From: Thermococcus onnurineus NA1
Lineage (GTDB): Archaea; Methanobacteriota_B; Thermococci; Thermococcales; Thermococcaceae
NCBI RefSeq assembly: GCF_000018365.1
Contig: NC_011529.1
Location: forward strand, 1,550,001-1,614,000
Length of the DNA stretch: 64,000 bases
Direction of reading: 5' to 3'
Shown here: positions 3,851-48,365 of the stretch, one piece after another
How the letters are laid out: each line of letters starts with the position of its first letter
Numbering within the stretch: the stretch's first letter is position 1
Made by a program: the position numbers and the translations under genes
Notes under the pieces: generated by a model
Databases searched by the model: none
The model's input: the letters and a program-made list of their open reading frames with translations, nothing else
What the model was told of the DNA's origin: nothing

Positions 3851-4453
3851 ATGAAGGTGCTGATTACTGGTTTCGAGCCCTTTGGTGGGGAGGAAATAAA
3901 TCCCTCGTGGGAGGCAGTCAGGAGGCTGCCGGACGAGATCGCCGGTGCAGAGCTGATAAAGCGCCAGCTTCCAGTTACTTTCAGGGGCGTTAGGGAGCTC
4001 CTGCCGAGGCTCATAGTGGAGACAAAGCCGGATCTGGTCATTCTGACCGGGCAGGCCGGCGGGAGACCGAACATCACAGTAGAGCGAGTTGCAATAAACG
4101 TCATGGACTCGACGATGCCCGACAATGAGGGATACACACCGGAAGACGAGCCGATTTTTGAGGGGGCACCGGATGCATACTTTGCCACACTTCCAATAAA
4201 GGCCATCGTGAAGGCTTTGAGGGAAGCAAAGATACCCGCGGCCGTTTCAAACACCGCCGGAACCTACGTCTGCAACACGGCTATGTACACTGTCCTCCAT
4301 ACGATAGCCGTCGCAGGAATGGAAACCAAAGCCGGCTTCATCCACGTGCCTTTCATCCATGAGCAGGCCCTCGATAAGCCGAGGCCTTCAATGGCCTTAG
4401 AAACGGTAGTGAAGGCCTATGAGGTTATCATTAAAACCTCGCTGAAAGCCTGA
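3851..4453 (+). CDS. pcp: Pyrrolidone-carboxylate (pyroglutamyl) peptidase
   Basis: A 200-residue cytosolic cysteine peptidase of family C15 that removes N-terminal pyroglutamate from peptides. Evidence: the N-terminus KVLITGFEPFGGEEINPSW is characteristic; GQAGGRPNITVERVAIN contains the catalytic Glu region; GTYVCNTAMYTVLH holds the nucleophilic Cys; FIHVPFIHEQ holds the catalytic His. An upstream in-frame extension from 3746 lies in the divergent promoter and lacks a ribosome site, whereas GGTGGTCATC directly precedes the ATG at 3851. TTTTTAAACC at about 3812-3821 is a plausible TATA element. Confidence 0.95.
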   Translation: MKVLITGFEPFGGEEINPSWEAVRRLPDEIAGAELIKRQLPVTFRGVRELLPRLIVETKPDLVILTGQAGGRPNITVERVAINVMDSTMPDNEGYTPEDEPIFEGAPDAYFATLPIKAIVKALREAKIPAAVSNTAGTYVCNTAMYTVLHTIAVAGMETKAGFIHVPFIHEQALDKPRPSMALETVVKAYEVIIKTSLKA

Positions 4454-4503
4454 TAACCTTTTTAAGACACCCCTCTAACTTTTTACAAAACCCTTTGAGG
4501 GTG

Positions 4504-6498
4504 GTGCCTATTCTAATCCTCGGAATTGACATAATAAGCGAGCATCCAAAGAGGTTTGCCGTCGTGAGCTGGTTCAACGGTAGAGTAGAGAGGAAGGGTG
4601 AGTTCACTCTGTACCGCTTAATCCGCTTCATCCAGAGCAAGAGACCGGATATGGTTGCCATGGACAGCGTTACCGAGCTGGGTGACGACCTGAGAAAGTT
4701 CCTCCGGGCACTACCCAGCGGAACGAAGCTTGTCCAGGTGACGGGGAGACCTGGGGAACAGCGCTCCCTCTGGGGCCTCGCGAGGGAGCATGGGATAAGG
4801 ATAACCGACAAGTTCGACCCCTACGAAGAAGCTAAAGTCTGCGCTCTCCTAGCTTCGAAAGGAATAGGTTATGAGGTTTTGGCTTTTGAGGACGAGGTTA
4901 TAATCAAGGTGACGCGGGGGAGGAGCCATGGGAAAGGCGGCTGGAGCCAGGACCGCTATAGAAAGCGTGTCCACAACCTGGTTAGAGACAAGGTTAGGGA
5001 GATAGAGGACAGGCTGAGGAGGGCCGACGTTCCCTTTGATTTAGAAGTTGAAGAGAAGGACTACGGTCTGGCGAAGGGCGAGTTTAAGGTCTACGCGAGC
5101 AGGGAAGAGCTGGCTGGCCTAATAAGACCCATGCGCGGCGGCGACGTCGAGGTTAGAATTTACCCTGTCGAGAGGGCCGAGCTGGGTTTTGCTCCTCTGA
5201 AGAGTGAGAGGGCCATAGAGGAGCGCAGAAGCATAATAGTCGGCATAGATCCGGGAATAACCGTTGGAATAGCGGCTATCGATTTAAGCGGAAACATAGT
5301 AGCTCTCCACAGCGAGAGGAACATGCCTGTCGGCGAGGTCTTCCGCTTCATAAGCGACGTCGGTCATCCGGTAATAGTGGCAACCGATGTTAATCCTGCC
5401 CCTGGTTTCGTCGAGAAGATAGCCCGCTCATTTAAGGCCCAGCTCTTCGTCCCGAGGGAGAGCCTCCGCGTGGAGGAGAAAAACGAGCTTTTGAGAAACC
5501 TCGGTGTAAGCGTTGAAGACGACCACCAGCGCGACGCCTTGGCTGCAGCCTATAAGGCCTACCTTCGCCTGAAGCCCAAGCTGGAGCATGTAGAGGCGAA
5601 GCTGAGGGAAGCCGGGCTGATCAAAAAGGCGGATGAGGTCAAGGCCCTTGTGATTCAGGGCTACAACCTCGGCGAGGCTATGCAGCGCGTAACCATCCGT
5701 GAGAGGCCAAAGAGGGAAGAGGAGAAGCCTGAGGAAAAGCCGAGTGTTGATCTCGAACCATACCTGAAGAGAATTCGCGAGCTTGAAAAGAGGATTGAGT
5801 TCCTCGAGAGGGAAAACGCTGAGCTGAGGGAAATCATAAAGGAGCAGAGGAAGACGATAGGGCGGCTCGAGCGCAGGCTTGTTGACTATGACGAGGAGGT
5901 CAGAAGGAAGGTTCTTCGCGAGAGGGAGCTTGAGGCTAAGGTCAAGCGCATAGAGATGCTTGAGAGGGAACTTAGAGAGGCCAAGGCGATAATTGAAAGG
6001 CTGAGCAGAGATTTGGCTCAAGTTAAGCGGATGAACGTCGTTGAGATACGGGGAAGTGCAGTTCCGCTCAAGGTCATGGAGGTTCTCAGTTGGCGCGAAC
6101 TCGAGAGGCTTGAGAGGGAGATAGGCATAAGGAGGGGTGACGTCCTCTTCGTAGTTAATCCCGCTGGAGCTGGAAAAGCCATAGCGGAGTCCCTGATCGA
6201 AAAGAAAATCCGTGCGCTGATAACCGAGAAGCCCCTGCCTCAAGCCGTCGCTGAGATTCTCAGAGAAGCTCACGTACCATTTTTCACCTCTGAAGAGCTG
6301 GACGTCAAGAGGGTTGACGAGTTTGCCGTCGTGGAGAGGGAAAGGCTGGAGAAGGCCATCGAGGAACTCTTGGCGAAGTGGGAGGAGGAAGACCGCGAAA
6401 GGGAAACTGAAAAGTTCCTCCGCCTTATTGAGGAGTACCGCATTGAGAGGGCCAAAGAGCTGATTAGAAAAGCTGAGGACGAGTCTAAATCTCGCTGA
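4504..6498 (+). CDS. DUF460/COG2433 protein with RNase H-like domain and coiled coil
   Basis: A large (about 664 residues) archaeal conserved protein. The N-terminal third starts with LGIDIISEHPKRFAVVSWF. A second RNase H-like segment reads IIVGIDPGITVGIAAIDLSG, with ATDVNPAPGFVEKIA and DDHQRDALAAAYKAY supplying acidic positions like those of RuvC/YqgF nucleases. Residues around 410-500 form a long charged coiled coil, followed by a small globular domain. Function is unproven; a nucleic-acid role is inferred. The start is uncertain. TTG 4495, GTG 4501 and GTG 4504 are in frame, but the best ribosome site (AGGGTGGTG, 4498-4506) would position a rare ATT at 4510. A TATA-like CTTTTTAAG lies at 4458-4466. 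Confidence 0.8.
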   Translation: MPILILGIDIISEHPKRFAVVSWFNGRVERKGEFTLYRLIRFIQSKRPDMVAMDSVTELGDDLRKFLRALPSGTKLVQVTGRPGEQRSLWGLAREHGIRITDKFDPYEEAKVCALLASKGIGYEVLAFEDEVIIKVTRGRSHGKGGWSQDRYRKRVHNLVRDKVREIEDRLRRADVPFDLEVEEKDYGLAKGEFKVYASREELAGLIRPMRGGDVEVRIYPVERAELGFAPLKSERAIEERRSIIVGIDPGITVGIAAIDLSGNIVALHSERNMPVGEVFRFISDVGHPVIVATDVNPAPGFVEKIARSFKAQLFVPRESLRVEEKNELLRNLGVSVEDDHQRDALAAAYKAYLRLKPKLEHVEAKLREAGLIKKADEVKALVIQGYNLGEAMQRVTIRERPKREEEKPEEKPSVDLEPYLKRIRELEKRIEFLERENAELREIIKEQRKTIGRLERRLVDYDEEVRRKVLRERELEAKVKRIEMLERELREAKAIIERLSRDLAQVKRMNVVEIRGSAVPLKVMEVLSWRELERLEREIGIRRGDVLFVVNPAGAGKAIAESLIEKKIRALITEKPLPQAVAEILREAHVPFFTSEELDVKRVDEFAVVERERLEKAIEELLAKWEEEDRERETEKFLRLIEEYRIERAKELIRKAEDESKSR

Positions 6499-10515: not shown

Positions 10516-11789
10516 TTGGCCACCCCCTTGCCTGCGAAGAGGCTTAGGTGTTTGACTATGAGCTTTTTGGCGATATTCCTGAACTCTTCTTCGTTTTCCG
10601 CGTTTATTTCTTCAAAGCACCAGTCCTCAACGTTGAAGACAGCCGTGCCATCCCTGTGGTAGAGCTTCAGCCTGTACTTCTCAAGCTCTTGGACGAGCTC
10701 CTTTTTATCCTTCGCCAGATTTGGATACGGATAGTGGGTGCCAAAGCTCTCCGCTATGGTGTACTCTGAGGTAAGGCTGAACTCCTTGCCTTGAATAATG
10801 CTTAAAATTAGGGGCTTTATCCTTGCAAGGCTGATGTATCCGTTCTCCTCCTTGGGGGGCTCTTTATTGGGCAATCTGATGAGAAGGGGAACTCTTAAAA
10901 GCTCGTCATGGAGAAAAACGCCGTGCCCAAGCTTTCCCCCATATTCCCCGAGCAGCTGGCCGTGGTCGCTAGTCACTATGGTTATGGAGTTCTCGAGTAT
11001 CCCCTTTTCCTGAAGGATACCGAGCATCTCCACGAGTCTTTTTTCAAGGTATTTAACCTGTTCTGGATACCCTTTCCTCCACTTCTCCACCAGCTCGGGC
11101 TCTTCCCCGAGGAGTCTGTTGACCACGGGGGCATCTGTGAACCCTTCAAAGAGGGAGTATGGCTCGTGGACTTCCATCAGGTTGATGAAGATGTAGGATG
11201 GAGCCTTAAAGTTGAGTTCCTTAAGGAGCTCGTTCGTAACTTTTGCACCCTTGTCCTTTGGCCATCCTTCTCCATATCTGCTTATGATTCTCCAAAGGAC
11301 TTTGAAAGGCAGGACGAACTCCTTATCTTTCATCAAGGCTTTGACAAGCTCCAGCCCATTTTTGGGCTGATACTTTTTGAGCACCTTGTTGAGCGCCTCT
11401 CTGTCCCGATCCTCGATGAGGGGTTTTAGCGTGTCGTGGAATTCGGAAAAGCCCTTTATCCCAAAGTCTGGCCCGATGAAGAAGTTTGCAGTGAAGAGGT
11501 AGGTCGTATATCCGAGGGAAGCTAAAACCTCTTGCAGGTACGTCCCATCCTCCCTGAACTTCACGTCAGGCACTTTCCTCTTCTTGCCCTCGTGCACACC
11601 GTGATAGAGGGGGTAGAGGCCAGTGAACATCGATGCATGACTCGGGATAGTCCATGGTGAGGGGGCTATTGCGTTCTCGTATCCTGTGAATCCGAACTCC
11701 TTAACCAGTTTATCCTCTATCCCATTGGAGTAGTCCTTTCTGAGGGTATCAAGGACTATTATGATTACATGGGGTTTATTCATATTCAT
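10512..11789 (-). CDS. Sulfatase/alkaline-phosphatase superfamily hydrolase or transferase
   Basis: A 425-residue cytosolic-looking protein of the alkaline phosphatase/sulfatase fold. HVIIIVLDTLRKDYSNG supplies the first metal-binding Asp. APSPWTIPSHASMFTGLYPL aligns with the sulfatase signature, but has Thr where type I sulfatases have the formylglycine-forming Cys. IVTSDHGQLLGEYGGKLGHG carries the second metal site (DH and GH). The Thr suggests a phosphodiesterase or phosphotransferase rather than a classical sulfatase. No signal peptide is seen. It shares an operon with the downstream GT2 gene. AGGTGAGGG precedes two in-frame ATGs (11789 and 11783); either may be used. Confidence 0.8.
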   Translation of the reverse strand: MNMNKPHVIIIVLDTLRKDYSNGIEDKLVKEFGFTGYENAIAPSPWTIPSHASMFTGLYPLYHGVHEGKKRKVPDVKFREDGTYLQEVLASLGYTTYLFTANFFIGPDFGIKGFSEFHDTLKPLIEDRDREALNKVLKKYQPKNGLELVKALMKDKEFVLPFKVLWRIISRYGEGWPKDKGAKVTNELLKELNFKAPSYIFINLMEVHEPYSLFEGFTDAPVVNRLLGEEPELVEKWRKGYPEQVKYLEKRLVEMLGILQEKGILENSITIVTSDHGQLLGEYGGKLGHGVFLHDELLRVPLLIRLPNKEPPKEENGYISLARIKPLILSIIQGKEFSLTSEYTIAESFGTHYPYPNLAKDKKELVQELEKYRLKLYHRDGTAVFNVEDWCFEEINAENEEEFRNIAKKLIVKHLSLFAGKGVAK

Positions 11790-15834: not shown

Positions 15835-16859
15835 TGGAAGAAAACGTATTCAAAAATAAGAATGTTCTTGTCACGGGTGGTACAGGTAGCATTGGTAGGG
15901 AGATAGTTAGGCAACTCCTGAGGACTGAGGTTAACAAGGTTGTGGTGATGAGCAGAGATGAAATTAAACACTTCATCATGAGAAAAGAGATACTAGACGA
16001 TCGCTTGGAATTTGTGGTCGGTGATGTGAGAGACTTTCAAAGTGCCAGTAATGTATTTAAACTATATGACATTAATATCGTGTTCCATGCTGCCGCAATG
16101 AAACATGTGGTTATCTCAGAAGAGTTCCCTTTTGAGGCAGTGAAAACAAACATTATAGGAACTCAGAATCTTGTAGAATTGGCCCTCCATCATGGAACTG
16201 AAAAATTCGTTACAATAAGCACTGATAAAGCTGCAAACCCCACCACAGTCATGGGGGCTACAAAGTTCATTGCTGAAAGGATAACGTTGAATGCAAACAA
16301 GCTTGCCAAGAATGAAAGTGCATTTATGGTAGTGCGATTTGGAAATGTTGCCAACTCAAGGGGTTCAGTAATCCCTATTTTTATTACTACCTTAGTTAAC
16401 AAAAAAACATTGTTTGTCTCTGACCCTGAGGTTACACGGTTCATTATGAGGATTTCAGATGCTGTACGGCTTGTCTTTAAGGCTACTGAGCTAGCGGAAG
16501 GGGGTGAGTTATTCATACTGAAAATGAATGCCTTTAAACTGGGAGATTTAGTAGAGGTTATGAGAAGAGACATTGCCCCATTAGTCGGTATTGATCCTGG
16601 AGAGGTCACTGTGAAACTTATTGGCCTATCTCCGGGGGAGAAATTGCATGAGGACTTAATAAACGAAGTGGAAAGTCATTATATAGAGGACTTAGGAAAC
16701 ATGTATAGAATTAAAATTGGTGAACCCTCCTTGGGCGAAGTTCATTCCAATGTTGTAAAATATAGTTCAAAAGAGGCGCCAAAACTGTCAAGAAAAGAAT
16801 TAAGGGATATAGTTTTGGAATACCTCAGAATAGGGGGTCAGCATAATGGAGAGCAATAA
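15834..16859 (+). CDS. UDP-GlcNAc 4,6-dehydratase/5-epimerase-like (PseB/FlaA1/CapD type)
   Basis: A 341-residue extended short-chain dehydrogenase. NVLVTGGTGSIGREIVRQLL is the NAD(P)-binding motif. VFHAAAMKHVVISEEFPFEA is the typical polysaccharide-biosynthesis motif. TISTDKAANPTTVMGATKF carries the catalytic region with a Met in the Tyr position (Ser/Thr-Met-Lys triad), a known variant among UDP-GlcNAc C6-dehydratases. It likely converts UDP-GlcNAc to a 4-keto-6-deoxy sugar for the preceding aminotransferase. The short length shows it lacks the membrane domain of PglF/WbpM. It overlaps the sulfotransferase start by 14 bp. Confidence 0.88.
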   Translation: MEENVFKNKNVLVTGGTGSIGREIVRQLLRTEVNKVVVMSRDEIKHFIMRKEILDDRLEFVVGDVRDFQSASNVFKLYDINIVFHAAAMKHVVISEEFPFEAVKTNIIGTQNLVELALHHGTEKFVTISTDKAANPTTVMGATKFIAERITLNANKLAKNESAFMVVRFGNVANSRGSVIPIFITTLVNKKTLFVSDPEVTRFIMRISDAVRLVFKATELAEGGELFILKMNAFKLGDLVEVMRRDIAPLVGIDPGEVTVKLIGLSPGEKLHEDLINEVESHYIEDLGNMYRIKIGEPSLGEVHSNVVKYSSKEAPKLSRKELRDIVLEYLRIGGQHNGEQ

Positions 16860-41992: not shown

Positions 41993-42745
41993 TTAGCGGA
42001 TGCTCCAGAAGTAGTTAATCAGGCTCTGGGCGAGATCTTCGGAGACTATTTTGATGCTGACCTCGTGGTTCCAGTAGAGGGCGCTCTCGCTCCAGTTGTG
42101 ACTCCCGAGGAAGACTGTCTTCCCGTCTATCACCACCACCTTAGCGTGAAGCGTCGTTTCGGGCGAGTCAAAAGAAACATCCACGCCGTTGGCTTTCAGG
42201 TAATCGTAGGCGGCCTGATTGATGTCCGAGGAGTCCTCGAGGAGGACATGAACGCTGACTCCCCTCTTTTCGGCCTCCGCCAGGGCTCTTATGAGATCGT
42301 TTGCCCAGTCGAAGCTGTCCGCGGGGTCGTACTTCATGGAGAACATCATTACATAGATGCTCTCACCGGCGTTGTTTATGGTGTTGAGAACCTCATAGTA
42401 GTATTCATTATCGAGGAGTATTTCAAAACCTGCCTCATTTCCAAGGGCCTGCTGAATCAGACAGCTCTGGTATTTGGCCTTCAACGAGCTGAGCTCTCCT
42501 TCCTCTTCGGCCAATGTGGAGTTGAGCTCGGAGAGCTTTGAGACGCACAGGCTAAGATTCTCGGTCAGCTCGGTGACGTTGATTCCAGGCTCTATCACTT
42601 TCACCTCGGTATGGGTTTCGGTTACGGTTTCGGTGAGTGTGTGGTTCTGGATTTCAGTTACGGTGGTTGTCACGGTTTGAGTTCCACCAAGACAGCCCGC
42701 TGATAGAACAGTTATGATGAGCAGAAATACCAGAGCTTTCTTCAC
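41993..42745 (-). CDS. Lipoprotein with phospholipase D-like (HKD) domain
   Basis: A 250-residue lipoprotein. The GTG start follows GGTGGTACGC and gives MKKALVFLLIITVLSAGCLG with a lipobox ending at Cys18. A Thr/Val/Glu-rich linker and a short coiled coil follow. The C-terminal 130 residues are a single PLD domain with HAKVVVIDGKTVFLGSHNWS (HxKxxxxD plus GSxN). Single-HKD proteins dimerise to make one active site and may act as phosphodiesterases or nucleases. It would act outside the cell. Upstream in-frame codons to 42775 lack good ribosome sites. Confidence 0.88.
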   Translation of the reverse strand: MKKALVFLLIITVLSAGCLGGTQTVTTTVTEIQNHTLTETVTETHTEVKVIEPGINVTELTENLSLCVSKLSELNSTLAEEEGELSSLKAKYQSCLIQQALGNEAGFEILLDNEYYYEVLNTINNAGESIYVMMFSMKYDPADSFDWANDLIRALAEAEKRGVSVHVLLEDSSDINQAAYDYLKANGVDVSFDSPETTLHAKVVVIDGKTVFLGSHNWSESALYWNHEVSIKIVSEDLAQSLINYFWSIR

Positions 42746-43025
42746 GCGTACCACCATCCAATGGTGTACATCCAACTTGTGAATTTAACCTTAACGTAGG
42801 GCAACCGTTAAGACTCTCATATTTTTGAGACTGAAATCGCATAATAGTGGGTTCCGTTGTTGAATAAGATTATTTCCAATTCATCCTCTGGCTCCATTAG
42901 TATACATCCATGATTTGCCCATCAATTATCGCCATATAATTAAACGTGGCAAGTAACTTAGGGCATCTGAGAATTAAAAGTACTCCATACCTTACTAATC
43001 AACAACAGCACTTACAGTTAACCTC

Positions 43026-43280
43026 ATGCTGACCTTTGAAAGAACTTGGGACAACAGGCTTACCACTGCTAACATACTCTTAACCATCAGTTTGAGCCTG
43101 ACCATAATCATCCTTGGCTTGAAACCCACCACCCCAGACCTGGTGACCAAAATAGTCACCTACTCCTTCCCAGCACTATACTCACTCATAATCACCACTT
43201 ACAACCTAATGCACAACAAGAACTTTGTAAAAGCTATAAAAAAGAAAGGGTTCAACCCCCAAACCTCACCCACTGAGTAA
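43026..43280 (+). CDS. Small two-helix membrane protein
   Basis: An 84-residue protein with two hydrophobic segments (TANILLTISLSLTIIILGL and VTYSFPALYSLIITTYNLM) and a basic C-terminus. No recognised family. No Shine-Dalgarno precedes the ATG, so start and expression are uncertain. It belongs to the CpG-free block, and its 3' end overlaps the convergent transglutaminase-like gene by 15 bp. Confidence 0.55.
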   Translation: MLTFERTWDNRLTTANILLTISLSLTIIILGLKPTTPDLVTKIVTYSFPALYSLIITTYNLMHNKNFVKAIKKKGFNPQTSPTE

Positions 43281-44894
43281 CCTCTTAAAACCCCTAATCA
43301 AAAGGTCAATGATACTCTCCCCACCACTGCCATTATCATTTTCCTTTTCCAATCTAGTCATATACTTCACAATCCTCTCTTTAAGCCAAGGAGGTGCATT
43401 CTCCAAAGTAAACACAGGCTGAGGATTCTTGAGGATTTCAGGAGGCTCACCCTTATCAATAATGAAATTAATCTCCCTGTACTGCCCCTTCTTAATCAAA
43501 TCCTCCTTGAGACCCTCCACAGTGACAGTCCTCCCATACCACTCCTTAACCCTGTACACATAAGGGTCTTCAGGAGTGGGGAGCTTGCTCAAATACACCT
43601 TAATTGGAAAATCCTTGTACTCCTCATATATCTCCTCATCAGTGGGAGTATGCCCAAGCCCCAGAGAGGAACTACCCCACTTCCCAGCAAGGAATATGTA
43701 TATGAAACCACCATGTTCTAGGTTGCTGTGCAAGTACCAGTAAAGTGCTTCTTCAAAACTGTTGAACTGGAGCTTGCCAGCTGGCAGGTACACTTGTGGG
43801 GGCTTCAGCCTCCCCCAGTCCACTGCAAATGTGAGACCAATTTTGAAGTAGGTGCTAAGCTTTTTATCCCCTTCAGAGTAGCCAACTATGGCTTCTTTAG
43901 TTTGACTAAACCTCTTGTAAGCTTCAAGGTTAATGTCCTTGCTAGTGTACCTGTAAAAGTACTCTGTCACTGCACTTGCACTGTAAATTTCCCATTTACC
44001 AGTTTCTGGGTAGTAGACAAACAGTTCAGCATGACCCACTGGGTTCACTTTACCATTAATCACACCATTTAAACCCACTAAATAATACTCTGCCTCAATC
44101 CCCATGAGCTTATTCAAGTGATAAAGAAAGGCATACCTGTACAGCACTATACCATCACAGTCAATTCCTTCTTCCCCCTTGATAACCTTGGAAGGAAGCT
44201 GAGGGTCATTATTAAAACCTGAACCTAATTTCATAAACATGTCAATGTTTGATTCTAAATAGTGCCTCATGACTTCTGGAGTGTAGGGAAGTCCCAGCTC
44301 ACCAATGTCTACAAGCTTATTAAATGCTCCAACTGGGTTGAAGTCCTCACACCAACCATTATCACACTCTCCTTGCATTTTTGTGTACTTGATGAAGATT
44401 TCCCTGTCCTCCTCATCAAACTTACCATACATTGCATCCAGGCTCAGCTTGAACACTTCAAGCACTGGTTCACTGTACAGGTCTTTCACAAGGTCTTTGG
44501 CATCAAAACCATACCAGCCTTCTGCAACTGAGTAGCCTCCCTTAAAGGTGAAGTTTTCCACCACTGGGGACTTCTCAGGGTTCAGGGGCTTGTAGTACTT
44601 GTACTTCTCACCCTGGAATTCAAAGTAGCTCTCAACATACCCAGGAGGCACTTGGGGAGCAGAGTAATCATAACTCTCCCCACCAGTCTCATCAAGACCA
44701 GCATCACTCCTGTCCAGCCTGTACTTCAAGTTCTCAAAAGGCACTACTATAAACTTACCAATGTGGTAGAATGTTCCCATGACTCCATCAACTTGGACAT
44801 CATCCTCAGTAAGCTCAGCAGGAGCAGTAAGATTACCCACTATGAGGAAGAGAATGAACATGAGGGCAAAGAGTTTGAGAATGTACCTGAACAT
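43266..44894 (-). CDS. Exported transglutaminase-like protein (degenerate triad)
   Basis: A 542-residue protein with an N-terminal membrane anchor or signal (YILKLFALMFILFLIVGNLT). A transglutaminase-like core near residues 245-310 has EGIDCDGIVLYRYAFLYHL with the candidate Cys and NPVGHAELFVYYPETGKWEI with the candidate His. The Asp usually found in the following strand is replaced (WEIYSAS), so activity is doubtful. The C-terminus is basic. GGAGGT lies nine bases before the ATG, and TTAATAAAC upstream is a TATA candidate. It contains no CGN arginine codon and no CpG. The family is not otherwise recognised; extracellular location is inferred. Confidence 0.75.
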   Translation of the reverse strand: MFRYILKLFALMFILFLIVGNLTAPAELTEDDVQVDGVMGTFYHIGKFIVVPFENLKYRLDRSDAGLDETGGESYDYSAPQVPPGYVESYFEFQGEKYKYYKPLNPEKSPVVENFTFKGGYSVAEGWYGFDAKDLVKDLYSEPVLEVFKLSLDAMYGKFDEEDREIFIKYTKMQGECDNGWCEDFNPVGAFNKLVDIGELGLPYTPEVMRHYLESNIDMFMKLGSGFNNDPQLPSKVIKGEEGIDCDGIVLYRYAFLYHLNKLMGIEAEYYLVGLNGVINGKVNPVGHAELFVYYPETGKWEIYSASAVTEYFYRYTSKDINLEAYKRFSQTKEAIVGYSEGDKKLSTYFKIGLTFAVDWGRLKPPQVYLPAGKLQFNSFEEALYWYLHSNLEHGGFIYIFLAGKWGSSSLGLGHTPTDEEIYEEYKDFPIKVYLSKLPTPEDPYVYRVKEWYGRTVTVEGLKEDLIKKGQYREINFIIDKGEPPEILKNPQPVFTLENAPPWLKERIVKYMTRLEKENDNGSGGESIIDLLIRGFKRLLSG

Positions 44895-44967
44895 GCCCCT
44901 ATTACCTCCTCAACTTAGTATTACCTGTGAAAAGTTTATTAAGCCTTTCTGTGGGATTGGGTAAGGA

Positions 44968-45000
44968 TATATAAATATGCATCTGCATCAGTATGCATAC
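44968..45000 (+). promoter_or_regulatory. TATA box and TGCAT-repeat operator candidate of the RHH gene
   Basis: GATATATAAATA (44967-44978) is a strong TATA element. Immediately after it come ATGCAT (44977-44982), TGCAT (44984-44988) and the perfect palindrome GTATGCATAC (44991-45000), covering the expected transcription start. RHH antitoxins often bind such repeats in their own promoters. Confidence 0.5.
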
Positions 45001-45012
45001 TAGGTGATTTCT

Positions 45013-45256
45013 ATGACAGAGAAAGTGAGAACAACTGTACTTACATCTATAAGAACTTCACCAAAGGACAAAGGAAAAGGGCATAAATTTGAGCAGGCTT
45101 CTTGAAAGGGCCTTAATGATAGAGCTAGAACTTCTAGAAAGCATTGACTTGAAAATAGAAGAGCTTCTGAGACAAAGACTCTTAGAGGATAAAGTTAAGA
45201 GTGGGGATGAAAAACCCACTGGTGGGATGATGAGTCTGGAGCCCCCTGATTGGTGA
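45013..45256 (+). pseudogene. Frameshifted RHH (CopG/CcdA-like antitoxin type) gene
   Basis: The ATG at 45013 follows GGTGAT and begins MTEKVRTTVLTSI, the N-terminal strand of an RHH domain. At about 45052 the frame breaks. One base later the neighbouring frame continues ELHQRTKEKGINLSRLLERA, then LMIELELLESIDLKIEELLR, and ends EPPDW at TGA 45254-45256. The joined product of about 80 residues has the helix-turn-helix order and length of small archaeal antitoxin-like regulators. No toxin gene is adjacent. The shift may be a real mutation or a sequencing error. It lies inside the CpG-free block. Confidence 0.65.
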
Positions 45257-45280
45257 GGAGGTTTCGCGGGGCTGACCGCT

Positions 45281-45577
45281 ATGGTAAAGCGCTGGCTGTG
45301 TAAAGACCTTTATGATGAGATTGAGAGGCTTGAGCGTTCCATCATTGAACTGGAGGAGCAGATAGTCGAGCTTCGAATGCAGCTCAACATGAAGGTCGAC
45401 GAGGCTAATAGGCTCGCCATAGAGAACACCAGTCTGAGACACAAGGTTGAGATAATGGAGCGTCGCGAGAAGCGCCTTAAGGAGCTCCTTGCAAAGCTCA
45501 AAGTCCCTCTTGTTGTCGTTGATGAGGAGCAGTTTGAGGATGTGGACGTTGACCTCGAAGCTGATTTGAAAGACTAA
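45281..45577 (+). CDS. Coiled-coil protein, function unknown
   Basis: A 98-residue protein. Residues 8-75 form a continuous charged coiled coil (for example LYDEIERLERSIIELEEQIV), followed by a short PLVVVDEEQFEDVDVDLEAD acidic tail. No known family recognised. The ribosome site is weak. It lies 58 bp before alaS on the same strand, outside the CpG-free block, and codon use is normal for the chromosome. Confidence 0.7.
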   Translation: MVKRWLCKDLYDEIERLERSIIELEEQIVELRMQLNMKVDEANRLAIENTSLRHKVEIMERREKRLKELLAKLKVPLVVVDEEQFEDVDVDLEADLKD

Positions 45578-45635
45578 CAAAAACCTTAATTAGGCTCCGG
45601 CTCTTTTTACTTCAGCTTAAAAAGAGGTGATGCTC

Positions 45636-48365
45636 ATGAGCATGGACATGACCACGCGCATGTTTAAAGAGGAAGGGTGGATGAGAAAACAGTGCCCTAA
45701 GTGCGGAAAGTTCTTCTGGACGCTCGACCCAGAGAGGAAAACCTGCGGGGACCCTCCGTGTGATGAGTATGGATTCATCGGTAAGCCTGGCATTCCAAAG
45801 AAGTACACCCTCGACGAGATGCGCGAGAAGTTCCTGAGCTTCTTTGAAAAGCACGGCCACGGAAGGGTGAAGCGCTATCCTGTTCTGCCAAGATGGAGGG
45901 ACGACGTTCTCCTCGTTGGTGCTTCAATCATGGACTTCCAGCCGTGGGTAATCAGCGGTGAAGCCGATCCTCCAGCCAATCCGCTCACCATCTCACAGCC
46001 CTCGATTCGCTTTACCGACATAGACAACGTTGGAATAACCGGCAGGCACTTCACGATATTTGAGATGATGGCGCACCACGCCTTCAATTACCCCGGCAAG
46101 CCGATATACTGGATGGACGAGACGGTTGAGCTCGCTTTCGAGTTCTTCACCAAGGAGCTCGGTATGAAGGCCGAGGACATAACCTTCAAGGAGAACCCCT
46201 GGGCTGGCGGTGGAAACGCCGGACCTGCCTTCGAGGTCCTTTACAGGGGTCTTGAGGTTGCAACGCTAGTTTTCATGCAGTACAAGAAAGCTCCTGAAAA
46301 CGCTGACCCAAGTCAGGTCGTTGAGATAAAGGGCGACAAGTATGTCCCGATGGAAACGATGGTCGTTGATACCGGTTACGGCCTTGAAAGGCTTGTCTGG
46401 ATGAGCCAGGGTACTCCCACAGCCTACGATGCCGTCCTCGGCTACGTCATAGAGCCACTCAAGAGGATGGCTGGAATAGAGAAAATAGACGAGAGAATCC
46501 TGATGGAGAACTCTAAACTGGCCGGAATGTTTGACATCGAGGACATGGGAGATTTGAGAGTTCTCCGCCAGGAAGTTGCCAAACGCGTCGGCATAAGCGT
46601 TGAGGAGCTGGAGAAGCTGGTAAGGCCCTACGAGCTTATCTATGCGATAGCCGACCACACCAAGGCCCTAACATTCATGCTCGCTGATGGAGTCATCCCG
46701 TCCAACGTCAAGGCGGGCTACCTTGCAAGACTCCTCATAAGGAAGAGCATAAGGCACCTCCGTGAGCTTGGTCTGGAAATGCCGCTGGCGGAGATCGTTG
46801 CCATGCACATCAAGGAGCTTTCGCCGAGCTTCCCTGAGTTTAAGGAGATGGAGGATGTAATCCTTGACATCATCAACGTTGAAGAGAAGCGCTATCAGGA
46901 AACCCTCCGGCGCGGAAGCGACTTGGTGAAGCGCGAGATAGCCAAACTCAAGAAGAAGGGTGAAAACGAGATTCCGCTTGAAAAGCTCATCCTATTCTAC
47001 GAGAGCCACGGACTGACGCCGGAGATAGTGGCGGAAATAGCTCAGAAGGAGGGTGTTAAGGTCCACATACCCGACAACTTCTACACTCTCGTCGCCAAGG
47101 AGGCCGAGAAGGAAGAAAAGAAGGAGGCCGCCCAGTACGTCGTTGACTTCGAACTCGTGAAGGACTTGCCCGACACGAGGACACTCTACTACGAGGATCC
47201 GTTTATGAAGGAGTTCGACGCGGAGGTTCTCAGGGTAATCGATGACTGGGTCGTTCTTGACCGGACCGCATTCTACCCCGAGGGCGGCGGTCAGCCCTAC
47301 GACACGGGCGAGCTGAACGGAGTTAAAGTTACCAACGTCCAGAAGGTCGGAAAGGTTATCCTCCACAGGGTTGAGGAGCCCGAGAAGTTCAAGGAGGGCA
47401 TGACCGTCCACGGAAGGATCAATTGGGACAGGAGAATCCAGCACATGCGCCACCACACGGGAACCCACGTCCTCATGGGTGCCCTGGTTAGGGTTCTCGG
47501 AAAGCACGTCTGGCAGGCTGGTTCTCAGCTTCATACCGACTGGGCCAGGCTGGACATATCCCACTACAAGCGCATAACCGAGGAGGAGCTCAGGGAGATA
47601 GAGAGGCTCGCCAACAGGATAGTTATGGAGAACAGAAGGGTAGCCTGGGAGTGGCTTCCAAGGACTGAAGCCGAGATGAAGTACGGCTTCAGGCTCTATC
47701 AGGGCGGAGTTGTGCCGGGCAGGATTATCAGGGTGCTCAGGATAGAGGACTGGGATGTCCAGGCCTGTGGTGGAACCCACCTGCCGAACACCGGCCTTGT
47801 AGGTCCGATTAAAATCCTGAGAACCGAGCGCATACAGGACGGTGTTGAGAGGATAATCTTCGCCGCGGGAGAGGCCGCCGTAAACTGGATGCAAGAAACT
47901 GAGAGAATCCTCAAGAGAACAAGTGAGGTCTTCCGCGTCCCGCCCGAGAAGTTGCCAGAGACTGCCGGGAGATTCTTCAACGAGTGGAAGGAGGCAAGGA
48001 AGGAAGTTGAGAGGCTCAGGAAGGAGCTGGCGAAGCTCCTCGTTTACGAACTTGAGGACAGAATCGAGAGGGTCGGGGAAGTCGAGTTCATTGGCGCAGT
48101 CGTTGAGGGAACCATGGACGACCTCCGCGAGGCGGCAAACAAGCTCAGGAAGGATAAGAGAGTTGTCCTCCTCATCAGCAGGGAGGGCCACTTCGTCGTT
48201 GCCGTTGGCGATGGCCTCGACCTTAAGGCCGGCGAGCTTGCGAAGGTGATAACAAGCGTTGCCGGCGGTGGCGGGGGTGGAAGAAAGGAGCTCGCCCAGG
48301 GCAGGATAAAGAACCCCCTGAAGGCCGAGGAGGCTATAGCCGAGGTGAAGAAGCGCCTCGGCTGA
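45636..48365 (+). CDS. alaS: Alanyl-tRNA synthetase, archaeal type
   Basis: A 909-residue class II synthetase. An archaeal N-terminal zinc-type segment ([18 protein letters not shown]) precedes the catalytic domain with [40 protein letters not shown] and [15 protein letters not shown]. The editing domain has [13 protein letters not shown] and [13 protein letters not shown] zinc ligands for clearing Ser- and Gly-tRNA-Ala. The C-terminal [12 protein letters not shown] is the C-Ala signature. The ATG at 45636 is chosen because GAGGTGAT precedes it; the in-frame GTG at 45627 lies in that ribosome site. Confidence 0.97.

Follow-up and report, generated by a model that had tools for sequence, protein, structure and literature searches.

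The question raised by this locus is why more than 2 kb of the Thermococcus onnurineus NA1 chromosome should contain no CG dinucleotide at all. In the window, by which we mean the whole 64-kb stretch of DNA that was analysed, neighbouring CGs occur at positions 42945 and 45265, and the 2320 bp between them contain none, where 104.6 would be expected from composition. This bears out a reading of the letters alone, which had reported no CG between 42946 and 45265 against an expectation of about a hundred. The second-longest gap without CG in the window measures 226 bp. As host background we used 400 kb, taken as 20 evenly spaced stretches of the 1.85-Mb chromosome (a sample of ~22%; 464 kb with the window). 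In this sample, 99.9% of CG gaps were no longer than 144 bp and the maximum was 399 bp, so that chance was rejected as the cause; the chance probability of the gap between 42945 and 45265 is at most 3e-40. Long zero-CpG windows are not common in this chromosome, with none above 399 bp elsewhere in the 464 kb examined. The 399-bp gap itself (4241-4640 of G000:C1:580001-600000) lies in an ordinary AT-rich stretch. AT-richness was rejected as well, because host 1-kb windows below 44% GC (n = 29) have a median CpG observed/expected ratio (O/E) of 0.73 and a minimum of 0.56. A protein-driven effect, which the earlier reading had also discounted, fails because distant paralogues of the 542-aa gene in the block show normal CpG.

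The final 43 bp of the gap (45223-45265) belong to a host sRNA gene, and the foreign CpG-free block is therefore approximately 42946-45222; it contains no GATC either. The corresponding site of a close relative (genome G026) is unoccupied, ~21 other bases standing in place of window positions 42810-45222, which identifies the block as an insertion; a search for empty sites in relatives was one of the checks proposed from the sequence. The left portion of the insertion, ~135 bp at 42810-42945 with four CGs, is likewise missing from the empty site. On the right, an attachment core, TGGGATGATGAGTCTGGA (45223-45240, + strand), which recurs nearly identically at both ends of the complete elements described below in genomes G082 and G004, overlaps the integration target, the host C/D-box sRNA gene sR23 (RF01138; 45225-45277, +; Rfam 75.4 bits, E 9e-18). 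The site is flanked by a host gene for a PLD-like protein (41993-42775, -), a homologue of which also flanks the intact G004 element, and, downstream of sR23, by a host coiled-coil protein gene (45281-45577, +) followed by alaS (45627-48365).

Three genes occupy the insertion. The first (42978-43280, +) encodes a small multi-TM protein that is truncated at its N terminus, with 77% identity to residues 46-132 of a 132-aa protein in G016, and was seen only in islands of this kind. The second (43266-44894, -) is intact and encodes a 542-aa protein with a membrane anchor and a transglutaminase-like domain. The third (45013-45256, +) is a ribbon-helix-helix (RHH)/CcdA-like gene, here a pseudogene with a 1-bp insertion at 45050; in the complete G082/G004 element this gene stands at the right end, and a similar gene terminates the G058 element. 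The suggestion that the block ends at gene borders holds only in part: its left edge cuts into the truncated membrane-protein gene, and its right edge is the sRNA gene. Because the block has no integrase gene and no left attachment site, and its RHH gene is frameshifted, we regard it as a relic rather than a complete element. A further CpG-free remnant, in G097 (C5, ~16050-16200), ends at an sR23 that is fused to the middle of alaS through a shared GGGGCTGAC; this is either a deletion or a misassembly.

A hydrophobic anchor lies at the N terminus of the 542-aa protein, which also has a C-x-D-G...G-H pattern of transglutaminase-like type (Cys246, His288). A Pfam search with it returned no match. 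An AlphaFold2 model built from four sequences (mean pLDDT 65) has weak similarity to vasohibin-, LapG- and NAT-like folds (E ~0.01 or worse); the predicted fold agrees with the transglutaminase-like cysteine peptidase superfamily without proving membership. Homologues were found in only 5 of the 115 Thermococci genomes searched, all of them Thermococcus, and four of the five copies are CpG-free. The islands around the homologue in G032, G023 (Thermococcus sp. HyVt-34) and G003 have zero CpG over 1.8 kb, and that in G016 has a CpG O/E of 0.15. G032 and G023 carry the gene at one locus, adjoining rlmI and the sRNA gene sR43. In G023 (C32, 2212-3868) the homologue is frameshifted and contains stops, and the island is still at zero CpG. 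In G016, a 77-aa gene (11352-11582) lies beside the membrane-protein gene; its product, possibly histone-like, has weak similarity (30-39%) to small proteins of ~50 Thermococcaceae genomes. No intact element bearing the 542-aa gene was found among the genomes searched. Its product and the small multi-TM protein encoded beside it are probably cargo.

Complete elements were nevertheless found. The proposal that the block belongs to a class of Thermococcales elements that avoid CpG is borne out by CpG-free islands with the same genes or the same insertion site, and by three different complete integrated elements of 17-22 kb, almost or wholly without CpG. The first, located through the RHH gene, occupies the sR23 site in G082 and G004 as copies of 16.9 kb flanked at both ends by direct repeats of the attachment core GGGATGATGAGTCTRGA. 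It has 7 CpG where ~625 are expected and carries genes for a 714-aa integrase, an MCM helicase (27% identity to that of pTN3), a type I restriction-modification (R-M) system, and KwaA/KwaB-like, GmrSD-like and YgjP-like proteins. The two copies are 98% identical and their hosts belong to two Thermococcaceae genera, a near-identity that suggests present mobility. The second element, in G058, is 19.3 kb long with 1 CpG (633 expected), uses the same sR23 site (empty in G059), and encodes an integrase 31% identical to that of G082/G004, a primase-helicase and a type 4 BREX system. The third, in G006, is 22.3 kb long, has no CpG (673 expected), and is inserted in sR43. It encodes a 998-aa membrane protein, several small hydrophobic proteins, an AAA ATPase, a Cas4-like nuclease and a resolvase, and looks virus-like from its gene content; the selected G006 proteins that we scanned matched no capsid family.

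In all three elements the integrase gene lies at one end, and the target is either the sR23 gene that precedes alaS or the sR43 gene close to rlmI. The integrases of G082 and G058 match PF00589, and that of G006 matches it weakly, below the cut-off, in addition to phrog_1. Searches of plasmid, phage and IMG/VR collections with the 542-aa protein, the island DNA, the MCM, the integrase, the primase-helicase and two G006 proteins returned no close relative. That elements bearing an MCM or an integrase are CpG-free in general was rejected, since all others examined, G058 excepted, have ordinary CpG. A relic of G082-type cargo (type I R-M, Kiwa-like, GmrSD-like and YgjP-like genes) lies away from sR23 in G015 (C1, 8819-19024), with CpG O/E of 0.2-0.46.

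The history of the missing dinucleotide can be followed in pairs of copies. For each pair, we placed its own substitutions at random and counted the CpG expected to result. The G032 and G023 islands differ by 353 substitutions, which should have produced 38.8 CpG; none is present. The G082 and G004 elements differ by 305 substitutions, with 38.6 CpG expected and 7 seen (6 of them shared), and the primase regions of G058 and G006 by 1155, with 76.7 expected and none seen. The relics behave differently: in G015 (86% identical) 72 CpG were seen against 78.9 expected, in G050 36 against 42, and in G044 12 against 36, and the G015 relic has regained GATC too. Because apparently fresh copies gain almost no CpG while relics regain it near the neutral rate, CpG avoidance appears to belong to the mobile phase and to end after capture. 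We take the G015 difference to be a gain in the relic, although the other lineage may have contributed by losing CpG. We also infer that neutral divergence in situ does not account for the differences between the G032 and G023 islands, which were probably acquired as separate copies. A process acting in situ on the chromosome was rejected, because the G015 and G050 relics regain CpG near the neutral rate.

We consider it likely that the block derives from a family of Thermococcales mobile elements whose mobile phase undergoes restriction-type selection against CG, and that it is a recent remnant in decay. Such elements would insert by a tyrosine recombinase into the C/D-box sRNA genes sR23 or sR43. 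While mobile, their DNA would be under very strong selection from a putative restriction-type activity that recognises the CG dinucleotide itself, with further words also selected against: the type II-like GATC and, in G006, CATG, GCWGC, GAGCTC and GGWCC. Fixation in the chromosome would end the pressure, and CpG would return. Among the causes that the sequence-only reading had listed, a CpG-specific defence is best supported, in the form of restriction-like avoidance.

The other missing words bear on whether any CG-specific agent is needed. In all three elements GATC occurs 0-3 times where 47-80 are expected (0 and 1 against 47-48 in G082/G004; 0 in G006), and G006 additionally lacks CATG (0, with 69 expected), GCWGC, GAGCTC and GGWCC. 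The purged 4-mers are self-complementary, and the avoided words are palindromic and nearly absent relative to a Markov expectation. We rejected GGWCC avoidance as a family trait, since the host avoids this word too and G058 does not. The host also avoids CTAG (O/E 0.48), which the G082, G058 and G006 elements do not. Several purged palindromes, in a set that varies between elements, are what one would expect if very many R-M systems with CG-containing sites of 4-6 bp had jointly stripped nearly every CG. We think this improbable: CpG is missing in every context, non-palindromic NCGN included; of the other 4-mers, GATC alone is purged in every element; and two plasmids wholly without GATC, pTN3 (KF527230; 0 against 58 expected) and pEXT9a (0 against 20), keep ordinary CpG. 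Loss of GATC thus recurs in the Thermococcales mobilome.

A mutational purge, in which cytosines of the element, in CpG and elsewhere, become methylated in one host or another and are then quickly deaminated at 80-100 C, which turns CG into TG or CA, strikes us as a little less probable still. The predicted excess of TpG/CpA, proposed earlier as a check, is indeed present in islands and elements (O/E 1.2-1.3, with 1.28 in the islands, against 0.91), and the CpG codon test in G006 leans towards conversion (lnL -83), although neither model fits there. The same test favours avoidance in G082 (lnL +14) and G058 (lnL +18), as does replacement at GATC in G082, G058 and G006 and at CATG in G006 (lnL +18 to +33); the CATG test is informative for G006 only, because G082 and G058 hardly avoid CATG. 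To leave 0 of 673 and 1 of 633 CpG, decay would require a far stronger sink than known methyl-CpG decay, and CATG and GAGCTC are lost from G006 just as completely. The element proteins that were scanned included no recognisable C5 methyltransferase, and m5C is below detection in T. kodakarensis (PMC13385129). The earlier suggestion of methylation plus hot deamination is thus favoured by the TpG/CpA excess and the G006 codons, and opposed by the G082 and G058 codons and by GATC in all three elements. We judge selection to be much likelier than mutation, though not proven.

Very unlikely is occasional arrival from a donor with a CpG-free genome, despite the elements' GC content of 35-39% (host ~52%) and their indifference to the host-avoided CTAG, because integration is into sRNA genes of Thermococcales, two Thermococcaceae genera hold near-identical elements, and plasmids of Methanocaldococcus, which could plausibly serve as a hot donor pool, show CpG O/E of 0.31-0.42 rather than zero.

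Restriction-type selection on the mobile phase remains our preferred explanation, and CG joins the list of restriction-site words only if the putative agent recognises the dinucleotide itself. Elements of 17-22 kb with almost none of the more than 600 CpG expected imply a selective agent against the dinucleotide. With somewhat more doubt than belief, we suggest that some Thermococcales cells carry a surveillance of DNA for bare CG that purges whole mobile genomes, an archaeal discrimination of self from non-self based on CpG. An agent that targets a dinucleotide would, if real, represent a new kind of defence in prokaryotes; we know of no restriction enzyme with the site CG. The pressure is not general in Thermococcales, because eight known plasmids keep ordinary CpG O/E of 0.49-0.84. 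The regain of CpG in relics offers a clock for the time since an element was trapped, and CpG-free stretches are a simple, homology-independent means of finding these elements and their BREX, Kiwa-like and R-M cargo.

There is precedent for integrative elements, for defence cargo and for site avoidance. In a partial search of the literature, where absence is no proof of novelty, we found nothing relevant on CpG-free archaeal elements or complete CpG purge, nor on integration into C/D-box sRNA genes, and a review of archaeal tyrosine recombinases is without such targets. Vertebrate genomes show a mutational methyl-CpG depletion that is incomplete (~0.2) and accompanied by TpG/CpA excess. The elements share the deficit and the excess, but their CpG loss is complete and comes with the loss of other restriction-type words. 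Viruses and plasmids avoid type II restriction sites as an answer to R-M systems (PMC6286503); as there, palindromic sites are wholly lost, and in the CpG-free elements they return once the element is immobile. The words in that study are the recognition sites of annotated enzymes, whereas here CG, the shortest possible self-complementary word, is missing from whole genomes of 17-22 kb. Like pTN3/TKV4 (Yamaviridae) and other integrated Thermococcales elements, the CpG-free elements have a tyrosine integrase and, in G082/G004, an MCM helicase, and pTN3 shares the lack of GATC. The CpG-free elements differ in targeting C/D-box sRNA genes and in their CpG, which is normal in pTN3 (0.84), and no capsid or packaging gene (DJR capsid or packaging ATPase) was seen in those proteins of G082 and G058 that we scanned. 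Finally, the cargo resembles that of defence islands on integrative plasmids, with HsdM/S/R, KwaA/KwaB-like and GmrSD-like proteins in G082/G004 and BrxP, BrxC, PglZ and BrxL in G058; what sets these elements apart is that their DNA is CpG-free and that two distinct cargo sets occupy one sR23 site.
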